Below, piece after piece: positions 2,688-61,917 of a stretch of 64,000 bases of DNA. Both the position numbers and the translations under genes were made by a program. The number at the start of each line of letters is the position of its first letter. Positions within the stretch are counted from its first letter, which is position 1. The notes beneath the pieces are model-generated. The model made no database searches and was not told the DNA's origin. It saw nothing but the letters and a program-made list of their open reading frames with translations. Origin of the DNA: Mycolicibacter virginiensis (GTDB lineage Bacteria > Actinomycetota > Actinomycetes > Mycobacteriales > Mycobacteriaceae). The stretch is taken from NCBI RefSeq assembly GCF_022374935.2, contig NZ_CP092430.2, positions 3,658,001-3,722,000 on the forward strand, in the 5' to 3' direction.

Positions 2688-3122
2688 ATGACGGCGACAT
2701 CCGCCGATGCGACTGCGGTGCCGGGGCCGCGGTCGGATGCGACGCGATTCCGGCGGCAGAGTCTGTACAAAGGCGACCCGGGAATGTGGGCGTTCGCGCT
2801 GCACCGGATCACCGGTGCGACGATCTTCTTCTTCTTGTTTGTCCACGTGCTCGACACGGCCCTGGTGCGGGTGAGCCCGGAGGCCTACACCGAGGTGATC
2901 GCCACCTACAAGACCCCGCTGGTCGGCCTGATGGAGCTGGGCCTGGTGGCCGCGGTGCTGTTCCACGGTCTCAACGGGGTCCGGCTGATCCTGATCGACT
3001 TCTGGTGGCAGGGCACCCGATACCACCGCCAGATGCTGGTGGCCGTCGGCGTCATCTGGCTGGTGGTAATGGTCCCGGTCGTGGTTCGGATCGGCATGCA
3101 CATGGTGGAGCGGTTCCTATGA
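2688..3122 (+). CDS. sdhC: Succinate dehydrogenase cytochrome b556 subunit
   Basis: A 144-residue membrane anchor with three predicted transmembrane helices (roughly residues 45-65, 80-105, 115-140). The ATG at 2688 is preceded by a GGAGG-like ribosome site (ttggaggcg). The open frame continues upstream, but those codons lie in the divergent gap and are not protein-like. ALHRITG and the LFHGLNGVRLI segment, with its histidine, are typical of the haem/quinone-binding region of SdhC. The roughly 25-residue polar N-terminal extension is longer than I recall for the M. tuberculosis protein. First gene of sdhCDAB, of the Rv3316-Rv3319 type; its stop overlaps the sdhD start. Confidence 0.92.
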   Translation: MTATSADATAVPGPRSDATRFRRQSLYKGDPGMWAFALHRITGATIFFFLFVHVLDTALVRVSPEAYTEVIATYKTPLVGLMELGLVAAVLFHGLNGVRLILIDFWWQGTRYHRQMLVAVGVIWLVVMVPVVVRIGMHMVERFL

Positions 3123-3586
3123 GCACAACTGACGTACAAGGCAGCCGGGGCCCGATAGCCCCGGTTCGCGGCCTGGACCGCGACCGCCCCGCCAGCCTCG
3201 GCGACCCCCGTGCGCCGCAACGGCACAGCGGGATGCCCAACTTCGAGAAGTACACCTGGCTGTTCATGCGGTTCTCCGGCGCCGTGCTGATCTTCCTGGT
3301 GCTCGGGCACCTGTTCGTGATGCTGATGTGGCAGGAAGGCGTCTACCGCATCGACTTCAACTACGTGGCGGAGCGCTGGCACCATCCGTACTGGCAGGTC
3401 TGGGACCTGTGCCTGCTGTGGCTGGCCGAACTGCACGGCGGCAACGGCCTGCGCACGATCATCGGTGACTACACCCGCAGCGCCCGCAGCCGGTTCTGGC
3501 TGATGACGCTGCTGGCGGTGTCGATCATCTTCACGCTGGTGCTGGGCAGCTACGTGCTGCTGAGCTTCGACGCGAACATTTCTTGA
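3119..3586 (+). CDS. sdhD: Succinate dehydrogenase hydrophobic anchor subunit
   Basis: A 155-residue second membrane anchor. Its ATG overlaps the sdhC stop (ATGA). After a hydrophilic N-terminus of about 45 residues come three transmembrane segments (about 50-75, 95-115, 130-152). The conserved AELHGGNGLRTIIGDY segment between helices two and three is typical of the actinobacterial SdhD that pairs with this SdhC. With SdhC it forms the quinone site and anchors SdhAB to the inner membrane. A 33-base gap separates it from sdhA. Confidence 0.92.
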   Translation: MSTTDVQGSRGPIAPVRGLDRDRPASLGDPRAPQRHSGMPNFEKYTWLFMRFSGAVLIFLVLGHLFVMLMWQEGVYRIDFNYVAERWHHPYWQVWDLCLLWLAELHGGNGLRTIIGDYTRSARSRFWLMTLLAVSIIFTLVLGSYVLLSFDANIS

Positions 3587-33283: not shown

Positions 33284-33325
33284 TGGTCGTGTGCCCTTTC
33301 TCTCGGTCGGCGTCTGCGGCCCCGA

Positions 33326-33476
33326 GTGTTAGGGTATCGGCGCGAAGCGCCAGGGAAGTCGGTGTGACTCCGACGCAGGCCCGCTACGGTGTTCCGCGGC
33401 GCATTTCGGTGCGCCACGGTCAGTCCGAATACCGGCTTCGCGTCGCCAACACACAGGTGTTGGCCACACGAGCGGA
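33326..33476 (+). promoter_or_regulatory. Cobalamin riboswitch before chelatase-cobO-cobBC-cobD
   Basis: Core pieces in order: cgccagggaa (33349-33358), the P5-type hairpin gtcggtgtgactccgac, then gcaggcccgctacggt, a ggcgcatttcggtgcgcc hairpin, and a B12-box-like cagtccgaataccggc (33421-33436). A perfect 8-base hairpin (gccaacac with gtgttggc, 33444-33463) follows and precedes the ribosome site gcggag. This suggests control of translation initiation at 33483. The peripheral domain is compact compared with the importer riboswitch at 51065. Confidence 0.88.
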
Positions 33477-46621: not shown

Positions 46622-47358
46622 CAGGTTCGCCGCACCAGGAACACATCCATCACCCAACCCGCCTCGGCACGGGCCGCATCGCGGGCGGCCGTGATCTCCT
46701 CGACGACGTCACAAACCCGTCCGGTGACCAGCCGCTCCCCCGACGCACCGAGGTTGGCGCCCCACCAGATCGTCCAATCGGCCACCGCAGAAAGATCGAG
46801 CCGGTCCGGGTTGAGCATCGCCACGATGTTGTCCTGACCCGCGGCGACCGCCTCCGCCAGCCGCCGGCCGGTGGTGATGTGCACCGGACTGCCCACTTCA
46901 TGCAGCACGATCCGATGCCGGGCTGCCAGCAGTTGCGGGGCGCTTATCCCAGGCAGCACGTCGTAATCCAGCTCGACCCCAAGGGCTTTCACCCGCTCGA
47001 CGATGCGGATTGTCGAGTCGTACAGTGCCGGGTCGCCCCAGACCAGGAAGGCGGCGGTGCCGCCGCGGGACCGCAGCACGTCGGCGTAGCGCTGCGCCCG
47101 GGCCGCGTGCCAGTCCGCCACGGCGTGGGCATAGCCGGGCTCGGTCAGCCCCGGGGAGCGGTCGCGGGCCGGGTCGGCAACCGCGACGATAGGGATCGAG
47201 GGGGCGTAGGTGTCGACGATGGTGCGCCGCAATGCCAAAAGACCGTCGTCGGAGGACTTCTCGGATGCCACTACGTAGTCGGCTGACCGCAGTGCGCTGG
47301 CGACCTCGGCGGTGACGTGCGCAGGTCCCATGCCGATTCCGAGAATCCAGACTTTCAC
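46621..47358 (-). CDS. cobF: Precorrin-6A synthase (deacetylating)
   Basis: A 245-residue methyltransferase that methylates C1 and releases acetate to give precorrin-6A. VWILGIGMGPAHVTAEVASAL is the N-terminal block, AFLVWGDPALYDSTIRIVE and YDVLPGISAPQLLAARH follow, and LNPDRLDLSAVADWTIWWGANLG is split from WVMDVFLVRR at the end. GTG 47358 has ribosome site ctggagga and overlaps the cobN stop. M. tuberculosis has lost this gene, so its intact presence shows the full aerobic ring pathway is kept here. Confidence 0.94.
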   Translation of the reverse strand: MKVWILGIGMGPAHVTAEVASALRSADYVVASEKSSDDGLLALRRTIVDTYAPSIPIVAVADPARDRSPGLTEPGYAHAVADWHAARAQRYADVLRSRGGTAAFLVWGDPALYDSTIRIVERVKALGVELDYDVLPGISAPQLLAARHRIVLHEVGSPVHITTGRRLAEAVAAGQDNIVAMLNPDRLDLSAVADWTIWWGANLGASGERLVTGRVCDVVEEITAARDAARAEAGWVMDVFLVRRT

Positions 47359-50300
47359 CGATCCTCCAGGTCGCCTTCTACGTCCAGGTAAGCCTGCCGC
47401 AACGCCGCCATGGTCTCGGGGTCGGGGTGCTCCCACAGGCCGCGGTCGGCGGCCTCGGTCAACCGTTCCACAATGCCGTGGAGCGCCCACGGGTTGGACT
47501 TGTCGAGGAACTCGCGGGTCTGCGGGTCCAAGACATACTCGGCCGCGAGCTTTTCGTACATCCAGTCGTGCACCACGCCGGCGGTGGCGTCGAACCCGAA
47601 CAGGTAGTCGACGGTGGCGGCCAATTCGAATGCACCCTTGTAACCGTGGCGGCGCATCGCGGAGATCCAGCGCGGATTGACCACCCGCGCGCGGAACACC
47701 CGGGCGGTCTCTTCGGCCAGCGTGCGGGTGCGGATGGCGTCCGGCGAGGTTGAGTCGCCCACATAGGCTTTCGGGTCGGCGCCAGTCAGCGCCCGCACGG
47801 TCGCGATCATGCCGCCGTGATAGACGAAGTAGTCATCGGAGTCGGCGATGTCATGCTCGCGGGTGTCGATGTTCTTGGCGGCCACCTTGATCCGGCGGTA
47901 GTTGGTGCGCATGTCGTCGGCCGCCGGCGCGCCACCGAGCCCGCGACCGTAGGCGAACCCACCCCAGGTGGTGTAGACCTCCGCCAGGTCCTTGTCGTCA
48001 CGCCACGTCCCGGATTCGATGACCTGCAGGATTCCCGCCCCGTACGACCCGGGCGCCGAACCGAAGATCCGGGTGGTGGCGCGGCGCAGATCGCCGTGTT
48101 CGATCAAGTCGGCGCGAGCATGCGCCGCCACGAAGTTCGTGTCGTCGGGCTCGTCGAGGGTGGCGACCATCTGCACGGCATCGTCGAGCATCGACACCAC
48201 GTGCGGGAAGGCGTCCCGGAAGAACCCCGAGATGCGCACCGTCACGTCGATTCTGGGCCGGCCGAGCTCCTCGGGTGAGATGACCGCCAGCCCGGACACC
48301 CGCCGCGACGCCTCGTCCCACTCGGGTCGCACGCCGAGCAGGGCCAGCACTTCGGCAATGTCGTCGCCGGAGGTGCGCATCGCCGAGGTGCCCCACACCG
48401 ACAGCCCGACCGATTCCGGGTAGCCGCCGGTGTCATCGAGGTAGCGCCGCACCAACGAGTCGGCCATCGCCTGCCCGGTCTGCCACGCCAGCCGGGACGG
48501 CACCGCGCGGGGGTCGACGGTGTAGAAGTTGCGTCCGGTGGGCAACACGTTGACCAGGCCACGCAACGGCGACCCCGACGGCCCCGGCCGTACGAACCCG
48601 CCGGACAGCGCGTGCAGCACCGCGTCCAACTCGGCCGACGTGCCGGCCAGCCGCGGAACCACCTCGGTGGCAGCGAATCTCAACACCCGACATACCTCGG
48701 GGTCAGGATGCAGCGTGTCAGCCAGGCCGGTCTCCCAACCGCCAGCCTCCATGGCTTCGACCAACGCGCGAGCGCGGCCCTCGATCTCGTCGACGACCGT
48801 CGCAGCGGCGTCTTCCTTGAGCCCCAGCGCGGCCCGCAGGCCCGGTACCGCATGGTCTACCCCGCCCCACACCTGCGGAGCCCGCAGGATCGCCAGCACC
48901 AGGTTCACCCGCTCCGGTCCGGTCGGAGCGCCGCCAAGCACGTGCAGGCCGTCCCGGATCTGGGCGTCCTTGATCTCACAGAGCCAGCCGTCGACATGCA
49001 GCAGGAAGTCGTCGAACTCCTCATCCTCGGGCCGCTCCTCCAGGCCCAGGTCGCGGTGCATCTCCGCGGCCCGCATCAGATTCCAGATCTCACCGCGGAT
49101 CGCCGGCAGCTTGGCCGGGTCCATGGACGCGATGTTGCCGTACTCGTCGAGCAGTTGCTCGAGGCGCGCGATGTCGCCGTAGGACTCCGCGCGTGCCATC
49201 GGCGGGATCAGGTGGTCGACGATCGTGGCGTGCGCCCGCCGCTTGGCCTGGGCGCCCTCGCCGGGGTCGTTCACCAGGAACGGATAGATCAACGGCAGGT
49301 CGGCGATCATCGCGTCGGTGGCGCACGCGGAAGACAACGCCGCGGTCTTACCGGGCAGCCATTCCATCGATCCGTGCTTGCCCAGGTGTATCACCGCGTG
49401 CGCGCCGAAACCATGTGCCAGCCAACGGTATGCGGCCAGGTAGTGGTGGCTGGGCGGCAATTCCGGGTCGTGGTAGATCGCCACCGGATTCTCCCCGAAG
49501 CCTCGGGGCGGCTGGATCATCAGCACGACATTGCCGGATTGCAGTGCGGCCAAAACGATCTCGCCGGCGTCGTTGACGAACAACTTGCCCGGCGCCGGAC
49601 CCCACGCCGTCGTCATCGCATTGCGCAGGTCGTCGGGCAACTCGGCGGTCCACTGCGCATACTGCTGCGCGGTGACCCGCACCTGGGCGCCGGCCAGCTG
49701 CGCAGCGGACAGCCAGTCCTCGTCCTGACCACCGGCCTCGATCAGGGTGTGGATGAGGCGATCCCCTGCCTGCGTCTCGTCAGCGACGTCGAGCACGCCG
49801 AAGCCGTCTCCGACGTCGTAGCCCTCCGCCGCCAGCCGCTGAAGCAACCGCACCGCCGACACCGGGGTGTCCAGACCAACGGCGTTGCCCACCCGGGAGT
49901 GCTTGGTGGGATAGGCCGACAGCACCAGCGCCAGCTTCTTCTGCGCGTTCGGGATACGGCGCAGCACCGCGTGATTCACCGCGACCCCGGCCACCCGGGC
50001 GCACCGCTCGGGATCGGCAGCGTAGTGCGGCAGCCCGTCGTCGTCGATCTCCTTGAAGGAAAACGGGACGGTGATGATCCGGCCGTCGAATTCCGGGATG
50101 GCGATCTGGGTGGCCGAATCCAACGGGGTCACGCCGTCGTCGTTGGCCTCCCAGTCCGCGCGCGAGGACGCCAGGCACAGTCCCTGGAACACCGGGATGT
50201 CCAGCGCCGCGATCTGTTCGATGTCCCACGCGCCGTCGTCGTCACCGGCACTGACCCCGGCGGTGGCGTTCATCGCCCCACCGGCGGCCAGCATGCAGAC

Positions 50301-50927
50301 CACCAGCGCATCGAGCTGACCCAGCGCGGCGAAGAGCTCGTTGGGGGCGTTGCGCAGCGAGGCGGCGAAGATCGGCACCCCGACCGCCCTGCCGGTGGCA
50401 TCGATGGCATCGGCCAAAGCGTGGGCGAATCCGGCGTTGCCGCTGACCTCGTGGGCGCGGTAGTACAGCACCCCGATCCGTACCGGGTTCGCAGCCTCGA
50501 CGCCTTCCCGCTGGGCGAACCCCCATTCCGGGATCACCGCCGGCTCCTCGAAACCCTCACCGGTGAGCAGCACCGTGTCGCACAGGAACGCGTGCAGCTG
50601 GGCGAGGTTGGCCGGCCCGCCCTCGGCGAGGTAGGCGTGCGCCTGGGCGGCCAGGCCGATCGGGACCGTGGAGCACTCCATCAGCTCGGCGTTGGGCGAG
50701 CGCTCCCCGCCGAGCACCACCAGCGGCAGGCCGGTCGCGCGCAGCAGCTTCAGTTCCTCGGCGATCTCGGCCGATGACCCCAGGATGCGCAGCACCACGA
50801 CATCGGCGCCGTTGACCAGCGGTTCGATGTCGTGGCGTGCGGGGTTCCCGAGCCGGTATGCCGCGCCGCTGGCCCGCGCGGACAGCAGGTCGGTGTCAGA
50901 GGTGGAGAGCAGGGCGATACGCCGCAT
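47355..50927 (-). CDS. cobN: Cobaltochelatase subunit CobN
   Basis: A 1190-residue catalytic chelatase subunit inserting cobalt into hydrogenobyrinic acid a,c-diamide, using the AAA/VWA partner encoded at 33483. ATG 50927 (MRRIALLSTSDTDLLSARA) follows a strong ribosome site (gggaggaacc); the open frame continues 82 codons upstream, but only through the leader and riboswitch DNA. Family blocks include VLSAYPTKHSRVGNAVGLDTP, HLGKHGSMEWLPGK, YRWLAHGFGAHAVIHLG-type metal-site histidines, and a C-terminal NPWALHGIVERL. Length matches Rv2062c. First gene of cobN-F-Q-K. Confidence 0.95.
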   Translation of the reverse strand: MRRIALLSTSDTDLLSARASGAAYRLGNPARHDIEPLVNGADVVVLRILGSSAEIAEELKLLRATGLPLVVLGGERSPNAELMECSTVPIGLAAQAHAYLAEGGPANLAQLHAFLCDTVLLTGEGFEEPAVIPEWGFAQREGVEAANPVRIGVLYYRAHEVSGNAGFAHALADAIDATGRAVGVPIFAASLRNAPNELFAALGQLDALVVCMLAAGGAMNATAGVSAGDDDGAWDIEQIAALDIPVFQGLCLASSRADWEANDDGVTPLDSATQIAIPEFDGRIITVPFSFKEIDDDGLPHYAADPERCARVAGVAVNHAVLRRIPNAQKKLALVLSAYPTKHSRVGNAVGLDTPVSAVRLLQRLAAEGYDVGDGFGVLDVADETQAGDRLIHTLIEAGGQDEDWLSAAQLAGAQVRVTAQQYAQWTAELPDDLRNAMTTAWGPAPGKLFVNDAGEIVLAALQSGNVVLMIQPPRGFGENPVAIYHDPELPPSHHYLAAYRWLAHGFGAHAVIHLGKHGSMEWLPGKTAALSSACATDAMIADLPLIYPFLVNDPGEGAQAKRRAHATIVDHLIPPMARAESYGDIARLEQLLDEYGNIASMDPAKLPAIRGEIWNLMRAAEMHRDLGLEERPEDEEFDDFLLHVDGWLCEIKDAQIRDGLHVLGGAPTGPERVNLVLAILRAPQVWGGVDHAVPGLRAALGLKEDAAATVVDEIEGRARALVEAMEAGGWETGLADTLHPDPEVCRVLRFAATEVVPRLAGTSAELDAVLHALSGGFVRPGPSGSPLRGLVNVLPTGRNFYTVDPRAVPSRLAWQTGQAMADSLVRRYLDDTGGYPESVGLSVWGTSAMRTSGDDIAEVLALLGVRPEWDEASRRVSGLAVISPEELGRPRIDVTVRISGFFRDAFPHVVSMLDDAVQMVATLDEPDDTNFVAAHARADLIEHGDLRRATTRIFGSAPGSYGAGILQVIESGTWRDDKDLAEVYTTWGGFAYGRGLGGAPAADDMRTNYRRIKVAAKNIDTREHDIADSDDYFVYHGGMIATVRALTGADPKAYVGDSTSPDAIRTRTLAEETARVFRARVVNPRWISAMRRHGYKGAFELAATVDYLFGFDATAGVVHDWMYEKLAAEYVLDPQTREFLDKSNPWALHGIVERLTEAADRGLWEHPDPETMAALRQAYLDVEGDLEDR

Positions 50928-50940
50928 AATCGGTTCCTCC

Positions 50941-51055
50941 CGGGGGTTCGCGCCCCGCATAGTCGGATGCCCCGCGGCCAGTATCTGGCTAACACAGTGG
51001 CGGAACCGCGCCGGAATTTGAGTACCGGACTTCCTGACGCCACGAGACGGCGGCC
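50941..51055 (-). promoter_or_regulatory. Compact cobalamin riboswitch before cobN
   Basis: Read on the minus strand: gcgtcaggaag (51042-51032), a P5-type hairpin ccggtactcaaattccgg (51028-51011), cgcggttccgccactgtg (51010-50993), then the B12 box agccagatactggc (50990-50977) only two bases later. This lacks the long peripheral arm of the importer riboswitch. A G/C hairpin (gggg...cccc) near 50965-50941 sits beside the ribosome site aggagg-like ggaggaacc, pointing to translational control of cobN. Confidence 0.85.
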
Positions 51056-51064
51056 AGCCTAACG

Positions 51065-51275
51065 CAGCGCGGCATGCAACAATGTCGCCGGTAAGGCGAT
51101 GACGAATGAGGAAGCCGGTGCGAATCCGGCGCGGTCCCGCCACTGTCATCGGGGAGCGACCCTCATCAGCCACGGCCCGCCACTTGTGGGGTTGGAAGGC
51201 GAGGCGAGCAGTGATCCGAGAGCCAGGAGACTCACGTCAACGCGTCCTGCGTACCGGGGCGGTGTACCCCGAGGA
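51065..51275 (+). promoter_or_regulatory. Cobalamin riboswitch before corrinoid importer operon
   Basis: Canonical core: gaggaagccggtgcgaatcc begins at 51108, then gcgcggtcccgccactgtc (51130-51148), a full peripheral arm, and the B12 box gagccaggagactcac (51220-51235). The expression platform hairpin cgggg...ccccg (51254-51271) precedes gaggaagc, the ribosome site of the ATG at 51291, so B12 binding should block translation. The same hairpin sequence recurs before both PPE genes. Its 5' end lies about 10 bases from that of the divergent cobN riboswitch. Confidence 0.93.
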
Positions 51276-51290
51276 AGCTGACTCACGCTC

Positions 51291-52487
51291 ATGTCCCGTG
51301 CGTTGCGGGTAGTTGCTGCGCTCCTGGTAGCGCTGGCCACCGCGCTGTCGTTGGCCGGCTGCTCCGGCGAACCCGCTTCCCGCACACTGCAAGCGCGTTC
51401 CGGCTGCATCACCGGCTTCGATCCGGCCGCCGACTACTTCCCGGACAAGTCGACGCTGACCGAGGCCACCAACTTCGCCATCACCTACCACGGCAGCTAC
51501 CAGGTTCTTACGGTCAAGCGGCCCTACCTCGGCGGCAAGCCGATGTCGTGGGTGTTGGTGCGCTGCGGTGCGCCCGCGCCGACGCTGACCGGGGAGCTGG
51601 CGAACGCCCAGCGGATCACCGTGCCGGTGCAGAGCCTCTACTCGGGTTCGACGACGCATCTGGCGATGATCACCGAACTCGGCCAAGCGGGCGTGGTCAC
51701 CGGAGTGGCGAGCCCGGCAGCCGTCGCCGACCCCCAGATCCGTGCGCGCATCGACACCGGTGAGATCGTCGGCTACGCGCCCGGCGGGCAGATCAATATC
51801 GAGCGCGTGATCGGTGCGGGCCCCGACCTGCTGGTCACCGAGGGCATCGACGACCCCGGCTATCCGAAGCTGCGCGAAGCCGGTACCCCGGTGCTGGCCG
51901 ACGCCGAATGGCTGGAACCGACCCCGCTGGGCCGCGCCGAGTGGATCAAGGTGTTCGCCGCGCTGACCGGGACCGAACGCCAAGCCGCGCAGGCCTACCG
52001 GTCCATCCGCGACCGTTACCGTGCCTTGGCGGCTCAAGCCGCCGCGACCAAGCCCGTCGAGGTCTTGGTCGGCACCATGTACTCGGGCAGCTGGTCGATG
52101 CCCACCGGCGAGAGCTACTCGGGACGTCTGGTCGCCGACGCCGGCGGCACCTATCCCTGGCTGTCGGAGACCGGCGCCGAGAACCGGCAACTGAACTTCG
52201 AGTCGGTGTACGCCCGTGCCGGTACAGCGCCGGTCTGGCTGATCACCGACGACTGGCACACCCTGGGCGATGCGGTGGCCCGTGACAGCCGCTATGGCGA
52301 GCTGACCGCGCTGCGGACCGGCCACGTCTGGTCGGCGACCAAGGCAATGACATCCCTTGGCGGCAACCTCTATTGGGAACGCGGCACGGCCCGACCGGAT
52401 CTGCTACTCGGCGACTTGGTCGCGATCCTGCATCCCGAGCTCGCCACCGACCACGCGTTCGAGTTCTACCGGCGGGTGCCGCGATGA
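51291..52487 (+). CDS. btuF-like: Lipoprotein substrate-binding component of a BtuF/FecB-like importer
   Basis: A 398-residue exported lipoprotein: signal peptide 1-23, lipobox LAGC with lipidated Cys24, then a class III periplasmic-binding fold (VGAGPDLLVTEGIDDPGY and PVLADAEWLEPTPLGRAEWIKVFAAL are typical helical-linker and lobe-two signatures). Such proteins capture corrinoids, haem or siderophores. The upstream cobalamin riboswitch argues for a corrinoid (or a B12-precursor) ligand. It is coupled to the permease by ATGA. I use btuF-like only for context; the ligand is inferred. Confidence 0.87.
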   Translation: MSRALRVVAALLVALATALSLAGCSGEPASRTLQARSGCITGFDPAADYFPDKSTLTEATNFAITYHGSYQVLTVKRPYLGGKPMSWVLVRCGAPAPTLTGELANAQRITVPVQSLYSGSTTHLAMITELGQAGVVTGVASPAAVADPQIRARIDTGEIVGYAPGGQINIERVIGAGPDLLVTEGIDDPGYPKLREAGTPVLADAEWLEPTPLGRAEWIKVFAALTGTERQAAQAYRSIRDRYRALAAQAAATKPVEVLVGTMYSGSWSMPTGESYSGRLVADAGGTYPWLSETGAENRQLNFESVYARAGTAPVWLITDDWHTLGDAVARDSRYGELTALRTGHVWSATKAMTSLGGNLYWERGTARPDLLLGDLVAILHPELATDHAFEFYRRVPR

Positions 52488-53524
52488 AGCCGCGTATCGC
52501 CCTGGTGCTGACCGCGCTGAGCGCCGCGGTGGTCCTGCTGGCCGTGCTCGGGCTGGTGCTCGGACCGGTGCGGGTGCCGGTGCTCGACACCGTGCAGGTG
52601 CTGTTCGGCGCCGAACCCTCCGACCCGCGCTGGCAGGTGATCGTGTGGAACATGCGGTTGCCGCGGGTGCTGACCGCGCTGGCCGCCGGGTCCGCGCTGG
52701 GCGTCGCCGGCCTGCAGCTGCAAACCCTGTTCCGCAACACCCTCGCCGATCCCTACATTCTGGGCGTGAGCTCCGGGGCGAGCCTGGGCGTCGCGGTGGT
52801 GGTGCTGCTCGGCGGGGCGGCCGGCGGCGGTTTCACCACCGCGGTGGCCGGTGCCAGCCGCGCCGCGGAAGTGATCGCAGCGGCGCTGGGTGCGGCGGCC
52901 ATGCTGACGCTGGTTCTGGTGCTGTCGCGATGGACCCGCTCGGCGGCGACGCTGCTGCTGATCGGTGTGATGATCGGCGCGGCCAGCACCGCGCTGGTGA
53001 GCTTGGCGCTGGTCTACTCCGATCCGCAGCGGGTGCAGCAGTACCTGTTGTGGGGCCTGGGCAGCTTCGCCGGAACCGGTTGGGCCGATTTGGAGTTGCT
53101 GCTGCCGCTGGTGGCCGTCGGGCTGTTGACCGCGGCGATGACGATCCGGCCGCTCAACGCCCTGCTGCTCGGCGAGAGTTACGCGGCGACCATGGGCATC
53201 AACGTGCACCGGGCCCGGATCGTCACGGTCGTCTCTGCGTCACTGCTGGCCGGCGTGACGACCGCGTTCTGCGGCCCGATCGCATTCCTCGGGCTGGTGG
53301 TGCCGCACGTGGCCCGCATCGTGGTGGGTACCTCCGATCACCGGGTGGTGGTCCCGGCGGTGGTCTTGCTGGGCGCGGTCGCCGCGCTGGGCTGCGGCGT
53401 TGTCAGTCAGGTGCCCGGCAGCGATCTGGTCATCCCGATCAACGCGGTCACCGCGCTGGTGGGGGCACCGGTGGTGATCGCCGTGCTGCTGCGGGCCCGG
53501 CGAGGATCGGGGTTGCCGTCATGA
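52484..53524 (+). CDS. btuC-like: FecCD/BtuC-family ABC permease
   Basis: A 346-residue permease with about ten transmembrane helices. VIVWNMRLPRVLTALAAGSALGVAGLQLQTLFRNTLADPYILGVSSGASLG-type family blocks are present (start RLPRVLTAL, end GVSSGASLG), and the ATPase-contact loop is LGESYAATMGINVHRARI; the C-terminal part has FCGPIAFLGLVVPHVAR. It works as a homodimer with the following ATPase. Starts inside the upstream stop and ends overlapping the ATPase start, so the three components are translated in ratio. Confidence 0.92.
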   Translation: MKPRIALVLTALSAAVVLLAVLGLVLGPVRVPVLDTVQVLFGAEPSDPRWQVIVWNMRLPRVLTALAAGSALGVAGLQLQTLFRNTLADPYILGVSSGASLGVAVVVLLGGAAGGGFTTAVAGASRAAEVIAAALGAAAMLTLVLVLSRWTRSAATLLLIGVMIGAASTALVSLALVYSDPQRVQQYLLWGLGSFAGTGWADLELLLPLVAVGLLTAAMTIRPLNALLLGESYAATMGINVHRARIVTVVSASLLAGVTTAFCGPIAFLGLVVPHVARIVVGTSDHRVVVPAVVLLGAVAALGCGVVSQVPGSDLVIPINAVTALVGAPVVIAVLLRARRGSGLPS

Positions 53525-55269
53525 CGCCACCGGCCGTCGAGCTGGCCGGCCTGGCCATCGGCTACCGCAGCCGGCGCCGGTCGACGACAGTGGCGACCGG
53601 ACTGGCCGCTCAGGCTCGCCGCGGCGAACTGACCGTGCTGATCGGGCCCAACGGAGCCGGCAAGTCCACCCTGATCCGCACCCTGGCGGGTTTGCAGCCC
53701 GCGCTCGGTGGACGTGTCCTGTTGGACGGCGCCGACCTGACCGCTCTCCCCCGCGACGAGCTGGCCCGCCGAGTCGCGGTGGTGCTGACCGAACGCGTCG
53801 ACCCGGGCTTGTTGTCGGCGCGCGAACTCGTCGGATTGGGCCGCATCCCCCACCTGGGGCTGGGTGCCCGCCTGCGCCCGGTCGACGAGGAGATCATCGA
53901 CTGGGCGCTGGCGGCGACCGGCGCACAGCATCTGGCGTCGCGACCGGCTGCCGAACTGTCCGACGGCGAAAGCCAGCGGGTTCTGACCGCGCGGGCACTG
54001 GCCCAGCAGCCGGGCCTGCTGATCCTCGACGAGCCGACCGCGTTTCTGGACGTGTCGTCGCGAGCCGCACTGTTCGGCCTGCTGCGTGAGCTCGCCCGCG
54101 ACCAGCAGTTGGCGGTGGTGCTGAGCACCCACGATCTGGAATTGGCGCTGCGGGTGGCAGATCGGGTGTGGCTGATGGATCCGGCGGGCACCCTGATGGA
54201 CACCGTGGGCGAAGAGCTGATGTTGTCCGGGCGCATCGGGGACATGTTCGGCAACGACACCCTGCGTTTCGACCCGGCCAGCGGCATGTTCGAGCTCAGT
54301 ACCCGCGCCGACAGCGATGGCGCGGCACGCACCGCACGCGTCGACGCTGAAGAGCCGTTGCACTCCGCACTGACGCGGGTGCTGTCGCGGGAGGGCTGGA
54401 GTATCGGCGATTCTGCCGAAATCGTGCTCACAGCAACCGATCCCGGTGCCATCACGCTGCGTACCGCCGGCGACAACCACGTCGTTGCGCTGCGCGACCT
54501 GCCGCAGCGACTGCGTACCCTGCCCGCGACCCCGCATCGCTGCGCGCCCCAGACTCGGACGTTCGCGGCACTGGCCGAGTTATCCACTGTGAGCTCCTAT
54601 TTCGCGGTCTCGACCGGGACCGCTGACGACACCGGCTGGCGTCCGGTGACGCAGCTCTACACCGACACCGACCTGCTGGCCGGCGCGGTTGCCGGCGTGC
54701 AGGATCGCATCGGGGCGTCGGATCTACGCGTGGCGGTATCCACCTTCTACCTCGGATATGCGGCGCGGCTGTGGTCGATCGGACTCGGCGGGCTCGCCGA
54801 GCACGGGTTGCTGATCGATCTGGACCCCGATCAACTCTGGTACTCCGACTGCGGCGGCAGCGTCCGGCTTCACCTGCCGAATCCGGTGGCCTGGCAGACA
54901 CCGTCAGCCAATGCGGATCTGGAGCCGATGCTGGCCGAGATGGTCCTGACCGAACACCTGACGCCGTTGGCCGCCGCGGTGCGTCGGCTCGGTCCGATCT
55001 CGCAGCGACTGCTGGACGGCAATGCCGCCTCCGCAGCTCTGGGCGCCGCCCGCGCCCTGTGCTGGCATCACGGTGGAAGTCTCGCGGACGAACCGAGCTG
55101 GGAACTCGCACGAAACATCTGCGAAGGCGAATATCTCAACGGCACAGTGTGTTTCGACGCCTCCAGCACGGATTATCGCCGGACCAGCTGCTGCCTGTTC
55201 TATCGCACGCCGGGCGGCGGCCTGTGCGGCGACTGCGCACTGACCCACAAACCTTGTCTGGACCGATGA
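53521..55269 (+). CDS. btuD-fhuF fusion: ABC importer ATPase fused to a C-terminal FhuF-like 2Fe-2S reductase domain
   Basis: A 582-residue two-domain protein. Residues 1 to about 255 are a FecE/BtuD ATPase: Walker A GPNGAGKST (42-50), signature LSDGESQ (146-152, a variant of LSGGQ), Walker B LLILDEPTAFLD and the H-loop VLSTHDLELAL. Residues about 285-582 resemble ferric-siderophore reductase FhuF, ending in Cys557-Cys558-x10-Cys569-x2-Cys572, the unusual spacing that binds FhuF's 2Fe-2S centre. Under a cobalamin riboswitch, the reductase half could release imported corrinoid by reducing Co(III). A siderophore role is the alternative. No stop or frameshift separates the halves. Confidence 0.9.
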   Translation: MTPPAVELAGLAIGYRSRRRSTTVATGLAAQARRGELTVLIGPNGAGKSTLIRTLAGLQPALGGRVLLDGADLTALPRDELARRVAVVLTERVDPGLLSARELVGLGRIPHLGLGARLRPVDEEIIDWALAATGAQHLASRPAAELSDGESQRVLTARALAQQPGLLILDEPTAFLDVSSRAALFGLLRELARDQQLAVVLSTHDLELALRVADRVWLMDPAGTLMDTVGEELMLSGRIGDMFGNDTLRFDPASGMFELSTRADSDGAARTARVDAEEPLHSALTRVLSREGWSIGDSAEIVLTATDPGAITLRTAGDNHVVALRDLPQRLRTLPATPHRCAPQTRTFAALAELSTVSSYFAVSTGTADDTGWRPVTQLYTDTDLLAGAVAGVQDRIGASDLRVAVSTFYLGYAARLWSIGLGGLAEHGLLIDLDPDQLWYSDCGGSVRLHLPNPVAWQTPSANADLEPMLAEMVLTEHLTPLAAAVRRLGPISQRLLDGNAASAALGAARALCWHHGGSLADEPSWELARNICEGEYLNGTVCFDASSTDYRRTSCCLFYRTPGGGLCGDCALTHKPCLDR

Positions 55270-55282
55270 AAGAAGGATTCCC

Positions 55283-55861
55283 ATGACCGAGAACACCGGC
55301 ACCGTCGTCGCCGATCCTCCCATCGTCGACACCGAAGACCGCGGTCGCGAACAACGCTGGCCGCTGCCGACCGATCAGCAGAGCCTGCTGGATCTGCTGC
55401 ACCTGTGCTTCGACGAGTACTGGAACGAGATCTGGTTCGGCATCATCATGGAAGGCGCGGCCTGGGAGGTGGCCGCCCCCAACGCGCCGCGCAAGATCGG
55501 CATGCTCGACGGCTACGCCACCATCGACTTCGGCCGCTGGCACTTTCACCTCTGCATCGGCAAGCATCGGGCCAGCGGCTCGGAGCTGGGCCGCATCCGG
55601 CGCTGTAGCCGGGCCGAGCTGTACCGCCGAATCGGCAAGGACGGCAACCCGCAGTCGTGGGGTGTGCGCCTGTTCAACGGGCGCGACGAGCAGATGATGA
55701 CCGTGATGCTGCCGAACCCATTCCTGACCAACGACCAGCAGATGCGCGACGAGCCCGAGTGGGGCCAGCTGGAGTTGTGGGACAAGCTGCGCGACAAGTA
55801 CCTGGGTCTGGGGCCCGACCCGTTGGACCGCGGCGGAAACCGGATCCGCTGCGGCGGTTAG
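55283..55861 (+). CDS. Conserved protein of unknown function in the importer operon
   Basis: A 192-residue soluble protein, start ATG 55283, 13 bases after the importer ATPase with an aaggat ribosome site. Blocks that look conserved are FDEYWNEIWFGIIMEGAAWE, split here by no gap, then LDGYATIDFGRWHFHLCIGKH (with a His-x-His-x-Cys cluster), CSRAELYRRIG, and MLPNPFLTNDQQM near the C-terminus. No signal peptide or membrane helix. I do not recognise a named family with confidence. Position in a B12-riboswitch operon suggests a cytosolic corrinoid or metal handler acting after import. The last codons and stop lie in a repeat element. Confidence 0.75.
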   Translation: MTENTGTVVADPPIVDTEDRGREQRWPLPTDQQSLLDLLHLCFDEYWNEIWFGIIMEGAAWEVAAPNAPRKIGMLDGYATIDFGRWHFHLCIGKHRASGSELGRIRRCSRAELYRRIGKDGNPQSWGVRLFNGRDEQMMTVMLPNPFLTNDQQMRDEPEWGQLELWDKLRDKYLGLGPDPLDRGGNRIRCGG

Positions 55862-55966
55862 CGAGACTCGACGAAGGAGAGCCGAAGCTGGACCGCCGCA
55901 ACAAACCCGGCGGTTAGCGAGACTCGACGAAGGAGAGCCGAAGCTGGACCGCCCCAACAAACCCGG
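55853..55966. repeat. Tandem copies of the dispersed palindromic repeat
   Basis: Two copies of the element at 26572-26618, 57 bases apart (55853-55897 and 55910-55953), each followed by a caacaaaccc spacer, with a partial third start at about 55965. Each folds by ggcggt/accgcc outer arms. The first copy contains the stop codon of the preceding gene. Confidence 0.8.
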
Positions 55967-55994
55967 CGGTTAGCCCCGCGGTTAGGCAGGAGAC

Positions 55995-56068: not shown

Positions 56069-57805
56069 CTAGTCCGGTTCGGCCGGCCAGGTGTTGGGCA
56101 TCATCGGGCTGATCGCCCCACCGCCGAACCCGTCGTCGGCCAGGGCGGTCAGTCCGCTCGGCCGTGCGCTGGCCACCCGGTGAGTGCCACCGGTGAAGCC
56201 CTGCGAGCCGGTACCTCTACTCGAGGCGAGTGCCCCGGCAAATTCCGGCATCGGGTCCGGCTCCAAGTCCATGTACTCGTAGCCGCGACCGCGCATCCCA
56301 GCCTTGGCCCGGCGCCGACGTCGCTGCGGCGCAGCCTCTTCCGCCGCGGCGGCCTCGGGAACATCTGCACTGTCCGGTTTCGGCGCCGCCTTCTTCCGCG
56401 TGCTGGTGCCCGATCCCCGGCGAGCCCCCATGTCGAGGCCCCCCACCATGTACATGTAGGCCGGCATCGTGACCGACGGGGGCCCCGCCGGGGTCGGCGG
56501 CGGTGCGCCGGGCGGCGGCGGGGCAGCCGCGGCCGGTGCGCTCGCAGGGGCGGGCGCGGGAGCCGGAGCAGGAGCCGGAGCGGGAGCCGGTGCCGGCGGC
56601 GAAGCCATCGCCAGCCCGGGCGGCGGCGGGGCAGGCGGCGGCACCGCTGCTGCCACCGCATGATGCGCCAGAGCCCCGATGCCCAGACCGCCGATCACCC
56701 CGGCGGGCGCCAGCACGGTCGTGGCGGCGAGCGCCGGCAACAGCGCCGGCAGCAGCGCCGTCTGGGTGATCAGGTAGTTGAGCGCCTGGATGGTGTTGCC
56801 GATCGTCGAGGTGACGATCTCGACCATCGCCAACGGCACGACCAGGCCAAGGCCCTGGGGATTGAACAGCGCGGTGTACATGATCGCGATCAGGTCGTCG
56901 ATGATGACGATGCTGGTGAACGCGAAGTAGGAGCCCGGGTCCAGCGGCACCGAGAAGATGTAGGCCAGGTTTCCCGGGTTGAAGAAGCTCAGCGGGTTGC
57001 CCGTCCAGCCCAGCCACGACCCGGGGACGCCCCACGGCGGCAGCAACGACGAACCGTTCTGCAGACTGGCGAAGAATTCGGCGAGCGGGTCCGCGAGACC
57101 GGTGAAGCCGATCTTGTTGAAGAACTCCTGCAGCTCGGCATACAGCGGGTACTGACCGCTGTCGGGATAAGGCGGATGCGGGACCAGGCTCTCGAGCCAT
57201 TTGGCGAAGTCCAGAAACCACTGCGGTGGCTCCGGCGCGGTGTCGGCCGCGCTGCCGGGCGTCTTGAGCACGGCCGGCGCCGGTTCGATCTGAGCTGTCG
57301 CCGCGGTCGCTACCGCCGCGCCGGCCACCGCCTGGTAGGTGGTCATCACGGCTGCCGCCTGCGCCCACATCCGCGCATAGTCGGCCTCGTTCAACGCGAT
57401 CGGAATCGTGTTGACACCAAAGAAGTTTGTACCCACCAGCACCGCGTGGGTGACGTGGTTGGCGACCAACTCGGCCATGGTCGGCATCGCCGCCAACGCA
57501 GCGGTGTAGGCCGCCGCCGCGGTCTGCTGCTGCGCGGCCGTCACCGTCGCATCGCCACCGGCGCGCAGTAGCCAGGCCAGATACGGGGCATTAGCGGCCA
57601 CGAACTCCTCAGCGGACGGGCCCTGCCACGCCCCGGCTTGCACTGCACCCAGCACCGCCGTCAATTCGTCGGCGACCGCGTGGTATTCAGTGCTCAGCGC
57701 GCTCCACGCGGCGGCCGATGACAATAGCGGACCAGCCCCCGGGCCGGCCGACAGTGACGTTGAATGGACTTCTGGCGGTGAGGCCATCCAGATGGGTGCG
57801 GTCAT
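56069..57805 (-). CDS. PPE protein of the PPW subfamily, PPE2-like
   Basis: A 578-residue PPE protein. The N-terminal 180-residue PPE domain starts [15 protein letters not shown] and has [12 protein letters not shown] and [17 protein letters not shown] hydrophobic central region follows (about 260-390), then a (Pro-Ala)n tract, a basic cluster [21 protein letters not shown], and the PPW signature PMMPNTW. The basic cluster and B12-riboswitch leader match what is reported for M. tuberculosis PPE2. PPE proteins sit in or outside the mycobacterial outer membrane; a channel for corrinoid or cobalt is the best inference. Its start overlaps the stop of a 13-codon leader ORF. Confidence 0.92.
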
Positions 57806-57859: not shown

Positions 57860-58051
57860 TCTCGGGGTACACCGCCCCGGGTCGCAGGATGCGACGATGT
57901 GAGTGTCCTGACTCTCGGATCAACGCTCGCCTCGCCTTCCAGCTCCATCAGAGCCGTGGCAGTTGAGGGTCGCTCCCCGATCACAGTGGCGGGACCGTGC
58001 CGGATTCACACCGGCTTCCTGCACCATCGTTGCCGTACCCGGGCATTATCG
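57860..58051 (-). promoter_or_regulatory. Cobalamin riboswitch before PPE gene (first)
   Basis: On the minus strand: gcaggaagccggtgtgaatcc (about 58024-58004, given in part), gcacggtcccgccactgtg, a full peripheral arm, then B12 box agtcaggacactcac (57912-57898). The platform hairpin cgggg...ccccg (57879-57863) and gagagagctg repeat the importer arrangement nearly base for base, so both genes should respond to the same ligand. Confidence 0.93.
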
Positions 58052-58084
58052 CACGCTGCGGCGCGCGACGCCCGGAAAGCGCGA

Positions 58085-59441: not shown

Positions 59442-60098
59442 GTGTCCTACGCACCGACACCCCAGACCACCCCCACCCGGTATCGGGAACGGGCTCGCTA
59501 CGACCGCGACACCGTGCACCGCATCCTGGACGAGGCGCTGATCTGCCACCTGGGATACACCCGCGACGGCCATCCGGTGGTGCTGCCGACCACGCACGCC
59601 CGGGTCGACGAGACGCTGTATCTGCACGGCTCCACCGGCAGCGGCCCGGTGCTGGCCGCCGGCCCGGGCGGTCTGCCGGTCTGCGTCACCGCCACCCTGG
59701 TCGACGGGCTGGTGCTGGCCCGCTCGGCGCTGCATCATTCGATGGCCTACCGCTCGGTGGTCGTCATCGGCGCCGCCCGCCTGGTCGACGACGAGGCCGA
59801 GAAGCGGCTCGGGCTGGACGCACTGCTCGATCACGTCGCACCCGGCCGGGCCGCCGACGCCCGGCCGCCCAACCGCCGGGAACTGGCGGCCACTGCGGTG
59901 CTGGCGCTCGACCTGGTGAAGGTGTCCGCCTCGGTGCGCGACGGCGGCCCCAACGACGAACCCGAGGACGTCACTCTGCCGCACTGGGCGGGAGTGGTCC
60001 CGCTGCGGATGGTCGCCGGACGCCCGGAACCGGCCGCCGACCTCGACCCGGCCATCGCGCTGCCGTCTTACCTGGAGTCTTACCGCAGACCGCGCTGA
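59442..60098 (+). CDS. Pyridoxamine-5'-phosphate-oxidase-like split-barrel protein
   Basis: A 218-residue FMN-binding split-barrel protein: [41 protein letters not shown] covers the family N-terminus (start YDRDTVHRI, end PVVLPTTHA), [29 protein letters not shown] the second block, and [11 protein letters not shown] the C-terminal strand. GTG start with ribosome site ggagg. Members are often annotated as PNPOx-like and are common next to MocR regulators; true PNP oxidase activity is not shown. The 3' end overlaps the convergent PPE gene by 19 bases. Confidence 0.86.
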
Positions 60099-61678
60099 TA
60101 CTCCGGCATCCAGGTGCCCGGCGTCATCGGAGTGGTGGCACCGCCGCCGAAGGCGTCGGCCGCCAGGGCGGTGAGTCCACTCGGCAGCACGGCATCCGAG
60201 GCGTCGTCTAAGTCCATGTATTCGTACCCGCGGCCGAGCATGTCGGCCTTTGCGCGCCGCCGCCGGCGGGACTTGACCTTCTCCTCGGCGACCACGGCGT
60301 CCACCGGCGCCGCGGCGGCCTCGGGCTCCGCGGCCTTGCGTCGGCGAGCACTGGTGCCCGCGGCCCGACGGGCCTGCTGGCTCGCGCCGGCGACCAGATA
60401 CATCGCGGCCAGACTGTCCCCCGGGGACAGCGGTGGTGCGGGCGGCGGAGGGGGCGCCGGCGGCGCTGCGGGCGGCGGCGGTGCAAGAGCGGGCGCCGGA
60501 GCGAGGGCCGGGGCCGGAGCGGGAACCGGCGGCGTCGGAGCGACCGTCAGGCCGGCGAACGGCGGGGGCATGACCGGAACCACCGGAACCGGAACCGCAT
60601 GCAGCGCAGCCAGGCCGGACAACCCCGCCAATCCGGCCAACGGCGCCGCGGCCAGTGGCGCCAATGCGGCGGTCAGCATCGGCAGCACAACCGGAATCAG
60701 CACCAGAGCCTGCTCCAGCAGCGTCTTGAGCAGGGCGATCACGTCGGTGATGATGGTGCCGATCGCCTGTACGGCGGTGAACATCAGCGTCGCGGCGATG
60801 GTGGCCGGATTACCGGAGGCGAAGGCCGCGGCCAGATCCGCGGCGATGAACGCGAACGTCTGCGACAGATAGGCCGCGAACGAGCCGAAGTCCATCGGGT
60901 AGCCGAGCGCGAACGCGATGTTGAACGGGTGCAGAAAGCTCAGCGGATTGCCGGTGATGCTCAGCCAGGGGTCGAACCCGCCGAACATCGACTGGAGGAA
61001 CGGGTTGCTCGCCAGCTCATCGATCATCGGCTGCAGCACCTTGTTGTAGAAATCGGTGTAGCCGCTGTTCTGCAGCCATTCCATGATCTCGTTCTGTCGA
61101 TCCGGCGGAAGCTGCGGCTGGCTGGCGTCCGCGGACTGGGCTTTGGCGATCTGTGGCGCCGCCGACGTCTGCGGGCTCGACGCCACCGCGGTGCCCGCTA
61201 CGGCCTGATAGGTAGCCATCACGGTGGCGGCCTGCAACCACATCCGGCCGTAGTCGGCCTCATTGAGCGTGATCGGGATGGTGTTGACACCGAAGAAGTT
61301 GGTGGCCACCAGCACCGCGTGGGTGGCGTGATTGGCCGCAAGTTCACCCAGCGTCGGCATCGCGGCCAGTGCGGTGCTGTAGGCGGTGGCCGCGGCCTGC
61401 TGGGCGGTGGCGGTCAGGGCGCTGGCGACCCCGGCCTGGATCAGCCACGCCAGATACGGCAGATTCGCCGCCACATACGCTTCGGCGCTGGGACCCTGCC
61501 ACGCCCCGGCCTGCACTGCCCCCAGCAGTGCCGTCAACTCGTCGGCGACCGCACTGTATTCGGCGCTCAGCGTGTTCCATGCGGCAGCCGACGCCAACAG
61601 CGGACCAGCCCCGGGGCCCGCCGACAGCAATGTCGAGTGGACTTCGGGTGGAGACGCGATCCAGATCGGCGCGGTCAC
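60080..61678 (-). CDS. PPE protein of the PPW subfamily (second paralogue)
   Basis: A 532-residue paralogue of the PPE at 56069. It shares [28 protein letters not shown] and [19 protein letters not shown] in the PPE domain, a hydrophobic middle, a Pro/Ala tract, the basic cluster [21 protein letters not shown] and the PMTPGTW signature. Unlike the first copy, its GTG start (61678) lies about 12 bases after the riboswitch-linked gagagagctg, with no intervening small ORF. Same likely role: envelope passage of corrinoid or cobalt. Probably arose by local duplication, leaving the MocR pair between the copies. Confidence 0.92.
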
Positions 61679-61689
61679 GGTCGTCAGCT

Positions 61690-61845
61690 CTCTCGGGTTA
61701 CCCGCCCCGAATCGGAGGTTGCGACGACGTGAGTGTCTGGCTCTCGGGTGAGGTCACTCCCCCGATGACAGTGGCGGGACCGCTCCGGATTAACACCGGA
61801 TTCCTACATCGTCATCGCCTTACCGGCGAATTGTCGCACGTTGAG
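61690..61845 (-). promoter_or_regulatory. Shortened cobalamin riboswitch before PPE gene (second)
   Basis: On the minus strand: taggaatccggtgttaatcc (61806-61787), ggagcggtcccgccactgtc, then a short connector of about 30 bases to B12 box agccagacactcac (61745-61732). The first PPE riboswitch has about 65 bases there, so the peripheral arm has been trimmed. The platform (cggggcgggtaacccg, then gagagagctg) is retained. The L5 loop reads ggtgttaa instead of ggtgcgaa, another departure. Confidence 0.88.
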
Positions 61846-61859
61846 CGTCGCCGGCACCC

Positions 61860-61917
61860 CCGAGTGGGAAATCCACGACGACTCCGTCGGCGTGTCCGTC
61901 GGGAGATCCCCACTCGG
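61860..61917. terminator. Hairpin after icd2
   Basis: Arms ccgagtggg (61860-61868) and cccactcgg (61909-61917) are perfect, with further partial pairing (gaaatcc/ggagatc) inside. It lies 32 bases beyond the icd2 stop on the minus strand and just upstream of the PPE riboswitch, so it probably separates the two transcripts. Confidence 0.65.

Follow-up and report, generated by a model that had tools for sequence, protein, structure and literature searches.

Why should the ATPase of an importer that lies behind a cobalamin riboswitch carry the iron-sulfur domain of a FhuF-type reductase? The question is raised by an operon in a 64,000-nucleotide stretch of the Mycolicibacter virginiensis genome (GCF_022374935.2, contig NZ_CP092430.2, positions 3,658,001 to 3,722,000 of the forward strand; hereafter, the window), in which one stop-free frame joins an ATP-binding cassette (ABC) ATPase to a predicted 2Fe-2S domain of FhuF type. 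We favor, with moderate confidence, a reading in which the operon encodes a corrinoid importer whose FhuF-type domain would reduce arriving Co(III) to Co(II) at the cytosolic face. Passages of a 2025 review name Rv1819c as the sole assigned mycobacterial importer of cobalamin (B12) and state that no outer-membrane route is known (PMC12713380), and the relevant part of a Mycobacterium smegmatis study supposes decyanation and reduction without a dedicated enzyme (PMC8088520). If our reading is true, FhuF proteins would gain a second substrate class, and a reductase on a riboswitch-led importer would supply a reduction step in mycobacterial B12 uptake.

RESULTS

An importer ATPase that ends in a FhuF-type domain

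The fusion protein comprises 582 residues (Table 1). Its N-terminal part displays Walker A (GPNGAGKST), signature (LSDGE), Walker B (LLILDEP), and H-loop (STHD) motifs, and, as the original prediction had described, this complete ATPase runs unbroken into a FhuF-type C terminus. The cysteine spacing noted there was recovered by FhuF_C (PF11575), which scored 34.1 bits over residues 554-574 (cut-off, 20.5). Of the two FhuF profiles proposed as a check, this one matched, whereas the profile of the FhuF body (PF06276) reached only 17.0 bits over residues 436-513, under its cut-off of 25.2. A six-frame search of the genome itself (4.98 Mb, one contig) returned no PF06276 match at E ≤ 0.001 and a single PF11575 match, the fusion. 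Among 56 aligned relatives, FhuF_C was present in all 56, ABC_tran (PF00005) in 54, and PF06276 at E ≤ 0.01 in 39, with a best E value of 4.8e-8.

The four cluster cysteines, Cys557, Cys558, Cys569, and Cys572, align with C244, C245, C256, and C259 of the Escherichia coli ferric-siderophore reductase FhuF (PMC8068687), and the flanking Arg554 and Tyr561 align with R241 and Y248. All six residues are identical in the 89 aligned actinomycete rows, the equivalents of FhuF Ser93 and Asn186 are also conserved, and the cluster spacing is exact in 85 of the 95 family copies scored (11 to 14 in the other 10). By these sequence comparisons, the C-terminal domain is confirmed as belonging to the FhuF type, and a 2Fe-2S cluster is predicted. 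It differs from E. coli FhuF in its setting, as part of an importer ATPase or encoded beside one, behind a cobalamin riboswitch, and in that the domain body of the fusion protein stays under the Pfam cut-off. Taken alone, the FhuF-type domain had no sequence relative among solved structures.

An extra segment between the two domains (about residues 251-345), which the original prediction had not anticipated, is largely missing from two shorter fusions, P0088 and P0089. Named records carrying the fusion at 85-93% identity over the best segment belong to M. heraklionensis (two), M. icosiumassiliensis (one), and a Mycobacterium sp. (one). Homologues of the fusion are also named in Mycolicibacter species, M. 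branderi, M. kyorinense, M. shimoidei, M. xenopi, and others, and a separate FhuF form, annotated as "(2Fe-2S)-binding protein" or "iron reductase," appears in records from M. celeriflavum, M. intracellulare, and others. The same homologue set contains a second kind of fusion, P0085 (411 residues), in which the FhuF-type domain is joined directly to DUF7676.

A cobalamin riboswitch heads the operon

The aptamer ahead of the operon is a full-length match to RF00174, its score standing far above the gathering score of 31.5, and the canonical cobalamin riboswitch of the original prediction is thereby upheld. The gene order described there, namely lipoprotein, permease, fusion, and a 192-residue protein, was likewise found, and the last of these is a DUF7676 protein. 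Lipoprotein and permease genes overlap by ATGA at 52484-52487, as do the permease and fusion genes at 53521-53524. The families that make up a type-II importer (PF01497, PF01032, and PF00005) are all present in the operon. Against solved structures, the DUF7676 protein gave no sequence relative at E values up to 10; used as a phylum-wide marker, the domain turned up in just 3 of 396 genomes, with one of these matches weak. A 56-bp tandem repeat of 2.2 copies (55852-55974) lies just behind its gene.

The arrangement recurs in fused and unfused form

With the C-terminal 310 residues of the fusion as query, a search of 401 family genomes found a relative in 86. The 96 copies were taken with flanks of up to 8 kb (95 fetched loci, 1.53 Mb); importer genes were marked by tblastn and riboswitch cores by pattern, which gave 95 hits in the 1.53 Mb and none in a reversed control. 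Together with E. coli FhuF, these copies formed 97 rows, of which 4 shorter than 150 residues were kept out of the tree and 7 shorter than 190 residues out of the conservation table (90 rows).

Intact fusions, defined by a Walker A and a cluster motif within one stop-free frame, make up 14 of the 96 copies, our genome included: seven in the window's genus group, five in group g10, and one each in groups g4 and g28. All 14 share the order riboswitch, binding protein, permease, fusion, and DUF7676; the fused copy of L052 was classified manually, and its intact frame was confirmed. A fifteenth fusion (L058) apparently has a broken frame in its ATPase part. The same order with ATPase and FhuF as separate genes occurs at eight loci of the Rhodococcus-type group g28, and beside several g28 loci lie second importer operons free of any FhuF hit; eight loci of the window's genus group show riboswitch, permease, ATPase, and FhuF, with no DUF7676 hit. 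At six further loci (L070, L071, L072, L074, L076, and L078), the riboswitch stands directly ahead of a lone FhuF-type gene, no importer hit falling within the 7 kb shown; in the five measured from Rfam places, it lies 48-56 nt before the aligned stretch.

A same-strand riboswitch core lies at most 5 kb upstream of 51 of the 96 copies, compared with a chance expectation of 0.27% per random point (108 riboswitch matches over about 100 Mb), and Rfam places alone put a riboswitch within 6 kb of at least 34. The 51 linked copies are kin and not 51 independent events; they are spread over several separate branches of the tree. Part of the FhuF family, fused and unfused, is, on this evidence of gene order, tied to B12 regulation. 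Fused rows sit in two parts of a quick tree (93 rows; 37 of 90 inner branches starred) among unfused rows, a pattern that fits two fusions or one fusion followed by later splitting. Six copies (L125, L132, L134, L137, L138, and the second copy of L052) share the motif (S/T)CCHWYAAPDGxxCSWC and make up a divergent FhuF-like branch; four of them bear an upstream-riboswitch label.

Across the wider class, 113 of 296 genomes contain FhuF_C. We examined 60 loci outside the family from a subset of these FhuF_C places, and at 9 of them a same-strand riboswitch core lay no more than 6 kb upstream, with one hit in the reversed control. At L174, in another actinomycete family, riboswitch, binding protein, permease, ATPase, FhuF, and DUF7676 all occur unfused, so the conserved unit is wider than the fusion. 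Most simply, the fusion would be a later joining of two neighboring genes.

B12 genes and PPE neighbors

Within the window, a further cobalamin riboswitch (33307-33454) leads an operon of a chelatase-like gene and cobO, and another in the genome leads what is presumably a metE-like gene; with those of two PPE genes, these are the genome's other riboswitches. Divergent from the importer operon runs a large gene that we take to be cobN-like. In five related loci (L045, L046, L047, L049, and L050), a cobalamin riboswitch on the minus strand precedes the divergent cobN-like gene and lies about 3.8 kb upstream of the FhuF domain; in the window, none was called at that place. The CbiC gene is kept in 79 of the 80 related genomes tested (80 of the 86 with a relative, our own genome lying outside the sample). 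The sole genome among the 80 with no CbiC match is G068; at its locus (L079), the FhuF-type frame is interrupted by a stop close to where the aligned stretch begins, no riboswitch core is found, and the only ATPase hit is weak and 5.7 kb away.

Two PPE genes, the first convergent with the importer operon, follow riboswitches of their own. The CGGGGCGGTGTACCCCGAG stretch after the aptamer is nearly identical in the btuF leader and both PPE leaders in a three-leader alignment, and such nearly shared leaders would place the PPE proteins in the same uptake regulon. A PPE match convergent with the operon occurs at all seven Mycolicibacter-type loci, with a riboswitch core behind it in six; in the seventh, the place falls off the contig end. 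Riboswitch control of M. tuberculosis ppe2 is described in a passage of the 2025 review (PMC12713380). The riboswitch-led PPE proteins are conceivable candidates for helping corrinoids across the outer membrane.

Table 1. Positions in the window of the importer operon, the parts of the fusion protein, and neighboring genes
Feature	Position	Strand	Evidence
Fusion protein: ABC ATPase, linker segment, and FhuF-type 2Fe-2S domain	53521..55269	+	Translation, Pfam profiles, alignment
ATPase domain (about residues 1-250), Walker A at 53644-53670	53521..54270	+	PF00005 (ABC_tran), residues 29-174, 94.8 bits
Linker segment (about residues 251-345)	54271..54555	+	Comparison with shorter fusions; boundaries approximate
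FhuF-type domain (about residues 346-582)	54556..55266	+	Alignment with E. coli FhuF; PF06276 in relatives
Predicted 2Fe-2S cluster motif (Cys557, Cys558, Cys569, Cys572)	55180..55242	+	PF11575, residues 554-574
Cobalamin riboswitch aptamer heading the operon	51066..51252	+	Rfam RF00174, 94.4 bits, E 3.3e-22, model 1-189
Putative expression platform CGGGGCGGTGTACCCCGAG and Shine-Dalgarno-like stretch	51255..51277	+	Three-leader alignment; putative function
Substrate-binding lipoprotein, BtuF-like	51291..52487	+	PF01497, 72.5 bits
FecCD-type permease, BtuC-like	52484..53524	+	PF01032, 255.9 bits
DUF7676 protein, 192 residues	55283..55861	+	PF24724, 238.5 bits
Divergent gene, presumably cobN-like; open reading frame overlaps the riboswitch, true start probably near 50930	47355..51173	-	Open reading frame listing
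Cobalamin riboswitch of the convergent PPE gene	57881..58063	-	RF00174, 89.7 bits
PPE gene (PPE-PPW), convergent with the operon	56069..57805	-	PF00823, 199.3 bits; PF18878, 47.3 bits
Cobalamin riboswitch of the second PPE gene	61711..61865	-	RF00174, 50.2 bits
Second PPE gene (PPE-PPW), own riboswitch	60080..61678	-	PF00823, 200.0 bits; PF18878, 27.8 bits

DISCUSSION

The pairing of importer ATPase and FhuF behind a B12 switch recurs in relatives, which suggests that incoming B12 is reduced on arrival. We infer the cargo, the B12 response, the electron transfer, Co(III) as the acceptor, and the delivery in the following model. At low cellular cobalamin, a type-II (BtuCD/FecCD-type) ABC importer for corrinoids would be produced, in which the lipoprotein would catch the corrinoid, the permease would pass it, and the ATPase dimer would power the step. 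Each ATPase chain would place one FhuF-type domain at the cytosolic mouth, and its 2Fe-2S cluster, fed by a cellular electron donor, may reduce the arriving Co(III) corrinoid to Co(II), the likeliest substrates being aquo/hydroxo or nitrogen/thiol-ligated forms. Reduction would weaken the hold of the axial ligand and trap the corrinoid inside, and the Co(II) form could then be handed to the adenosyltransferase cobO.

A potential of -0.36 V leaves a wide margin for aquo/hydroxocobalamin, is of doubtful reach for cyanocobalamin as long as its lower ligand stays in place, and is not low enough for alkylcobalamins. Judged by these corrinoid values, a FhuF-like potential would suit aquo/hydroxo-corrinoids better than cyano- or alkyl-cobalamins, and the earlier proposal that reduction frees the upper ligand of the incoming cobalamin has to be narrowed to the former. 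The E. coli FhuF potential is given as about -0.36 V at pH 7.4 and as pH-dependent in the relevant part of its description (PMC8068687).

Known systems resemble parts of this scheme. A three-part type-II importer with a predicted B12 role is shared with BtuFCD of E. coli and its predicted mycobacterial counterpart MSMEG_4560-4558 (passages of PMC8088520 and PMC12713380), from which our operon differs in the 2Fe-2S domain borne by its ATPase, in the DUF7676 gene that follows, and in scores under the BtuF, BtuC, and BtuD equivalog cut-offs. The original prediction had called a BtuFCD-type route notable in mycobacteria; the operon has that general form, and the route itself is already in print as a prediction, in passages on M. 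smegmatis (PMC8088520) and on M. smegmatis and M. abscessus (PMC12713380). Three papers on mycobacterial B12 (PMC12713380, PMC8088520, and PMC3603451) contain no occurrence of FhuF, the FhuF passages of PMC7689651 and PMC4531530 draw no link to B12 uptake, and the word "reductase" does not occur in the main text of a study of riboswitch regulons (PMC3766115). In the main texts of open-license papers, we found none that ties FhuF to BtuFCD. For reductive handling of an incoming Co(III) corrinoid, CblC/MMACHC and the flavin-dependent cobalamin reductases do an analogous job; they belong to other protein families, whereas here an iron-sulfur domain sits in, or with, the importer.

Several observations weigh against a corrinoid importer with a built-in reductase. 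No importer subunit reached the curated NCBIfam cut-offs: the lipoprotein scored 14.9 bits against the BtuF cut-off of 234, the permease 194.6 against 334 for its best model (BtuC, PRK03784), and the ATPase part 106.8 against 281 for BtuD. The closest NCBIfam model for the ATPase part is the F420-0 ABC transporter ATPase (TIGR03873; 187.9 bits), although its cut-off of 372.4 was not reached either. Because the subunits stay under these cut-offs, "BtuFCD" describes a likeness only, and it is the riboswitch and its recurrence that support a B12 role. The binding protein is remote from all solved relatives, the best being a putative iron-compound-binding protein (E value, 7.9e-5), and this comparison does not discriminate the cargo. 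Furthermore, in the range scored, an upstream riboswitch core and importer genes are both missing from 43 of the 96 family copies, among them L060-L064 (5 of the 11 in group g10), and no same-strand core lies upstream at 51 of the 60 loci examined beyond the family, so the FhuF domain is not tied to B12 everywhere; the 43 may be ordinary FhuF proteins or detached copies. Finally, since 79 of 80 related genomes keep CbiC, corrinoid import would be salvage and not a necessity. Of the interpretation first offered, the domain identity and the tie to cobalamin regulation stood, recurring in many genomes in fused and unfused form; a corrinoid cargo and the reduction of cob(III)alamin are probable, as the best reading of the locus.

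The cargo might instead be a Co(III)-metallophore, with FhuF reducing Co(III) to Co(II) to free cobalt for the cobaltochelatase, and with B12 repressing the operon because it serves B12 synthesis. Our genome probably makes B12, as judged from the chelatase-like gene and cobO behind a riboswitch, the adjacent cobN-like gene, and CbiC in relatives; the presence of CbiC cannot, however, separate corrinoid from cobalt import. The putative iron-compound-binding protein as best solved relative would also be in keeping with a metal chelate. Reductive release of metal from chelators is the known job of FhuF in passages of PMC8068687, and cobalt transporters are known in cobalamin-riboswitch regulons (part of PMC3766115). 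The best NCBIfam match of the permease, on the other hand, is BtuC and not a siderophore permease, though under the cut-off, and we regard cobalt delivery as unlikely, while granting it some weight.

The FhuF-type domain could also be a regulatory or electron-sensing appendage with no catalytic role, acting through trans-inhibition by bound corrinoid or through the redox state of its cluster. C-terminal regulatory domains are a known theme among ABC ATPases, and fusion would fix two such domains in place on the ATPase dimer. The domain is, however, also encoded separately beside the importer and alone behind the riboswitch, as would be unexpected of a pure ATPase regulator, and we hold this explanation to be improbable.

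It is more doubtful still that the operon encodes an ordinary ferric-siderophore or heme importer that acquired a cobalamin riboswitch. The FhuF_C identity of the domain would agree with that, as would the heme oxygenase gene (2897-3562, minus strand) close to the fused operon of the related locus L052, but the riboswitch is present with every one of the 14 intact fusions and with several FhuF loci of other gene order. Ordinary iron regulation was rejected, as no match to the IdeR-type iron box consensus was present in the window at up to three mismatches, which is weak evidence.

Returning to import coupled to reduction, we see an even balance for and against a broader extension of it: an actinomycete FhuF branch may consist of dedicated corrinoid Co(III) reductases that belong to the B12 regulon and that some lineages have joined to the importer ATPase as one import-and-reduction machine. 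Together with the riboswitch-led PPE proteins as possible outer-membrane components and with DUF7676 in the part of a carrier, this would form a complete B12 uptake-and-activation route of non-tuberculous mycobacteria.

That a frameshift or misassembly merely joined two adjacent genes was rejected despite the unfused order in relatives, because PF00005 and PF11575 occur together in 96 of the 105 database homologues listed (a set whose length limits favor long proteins) and because an intact, stop-free fusion recurs in 14 genomes, our own included.

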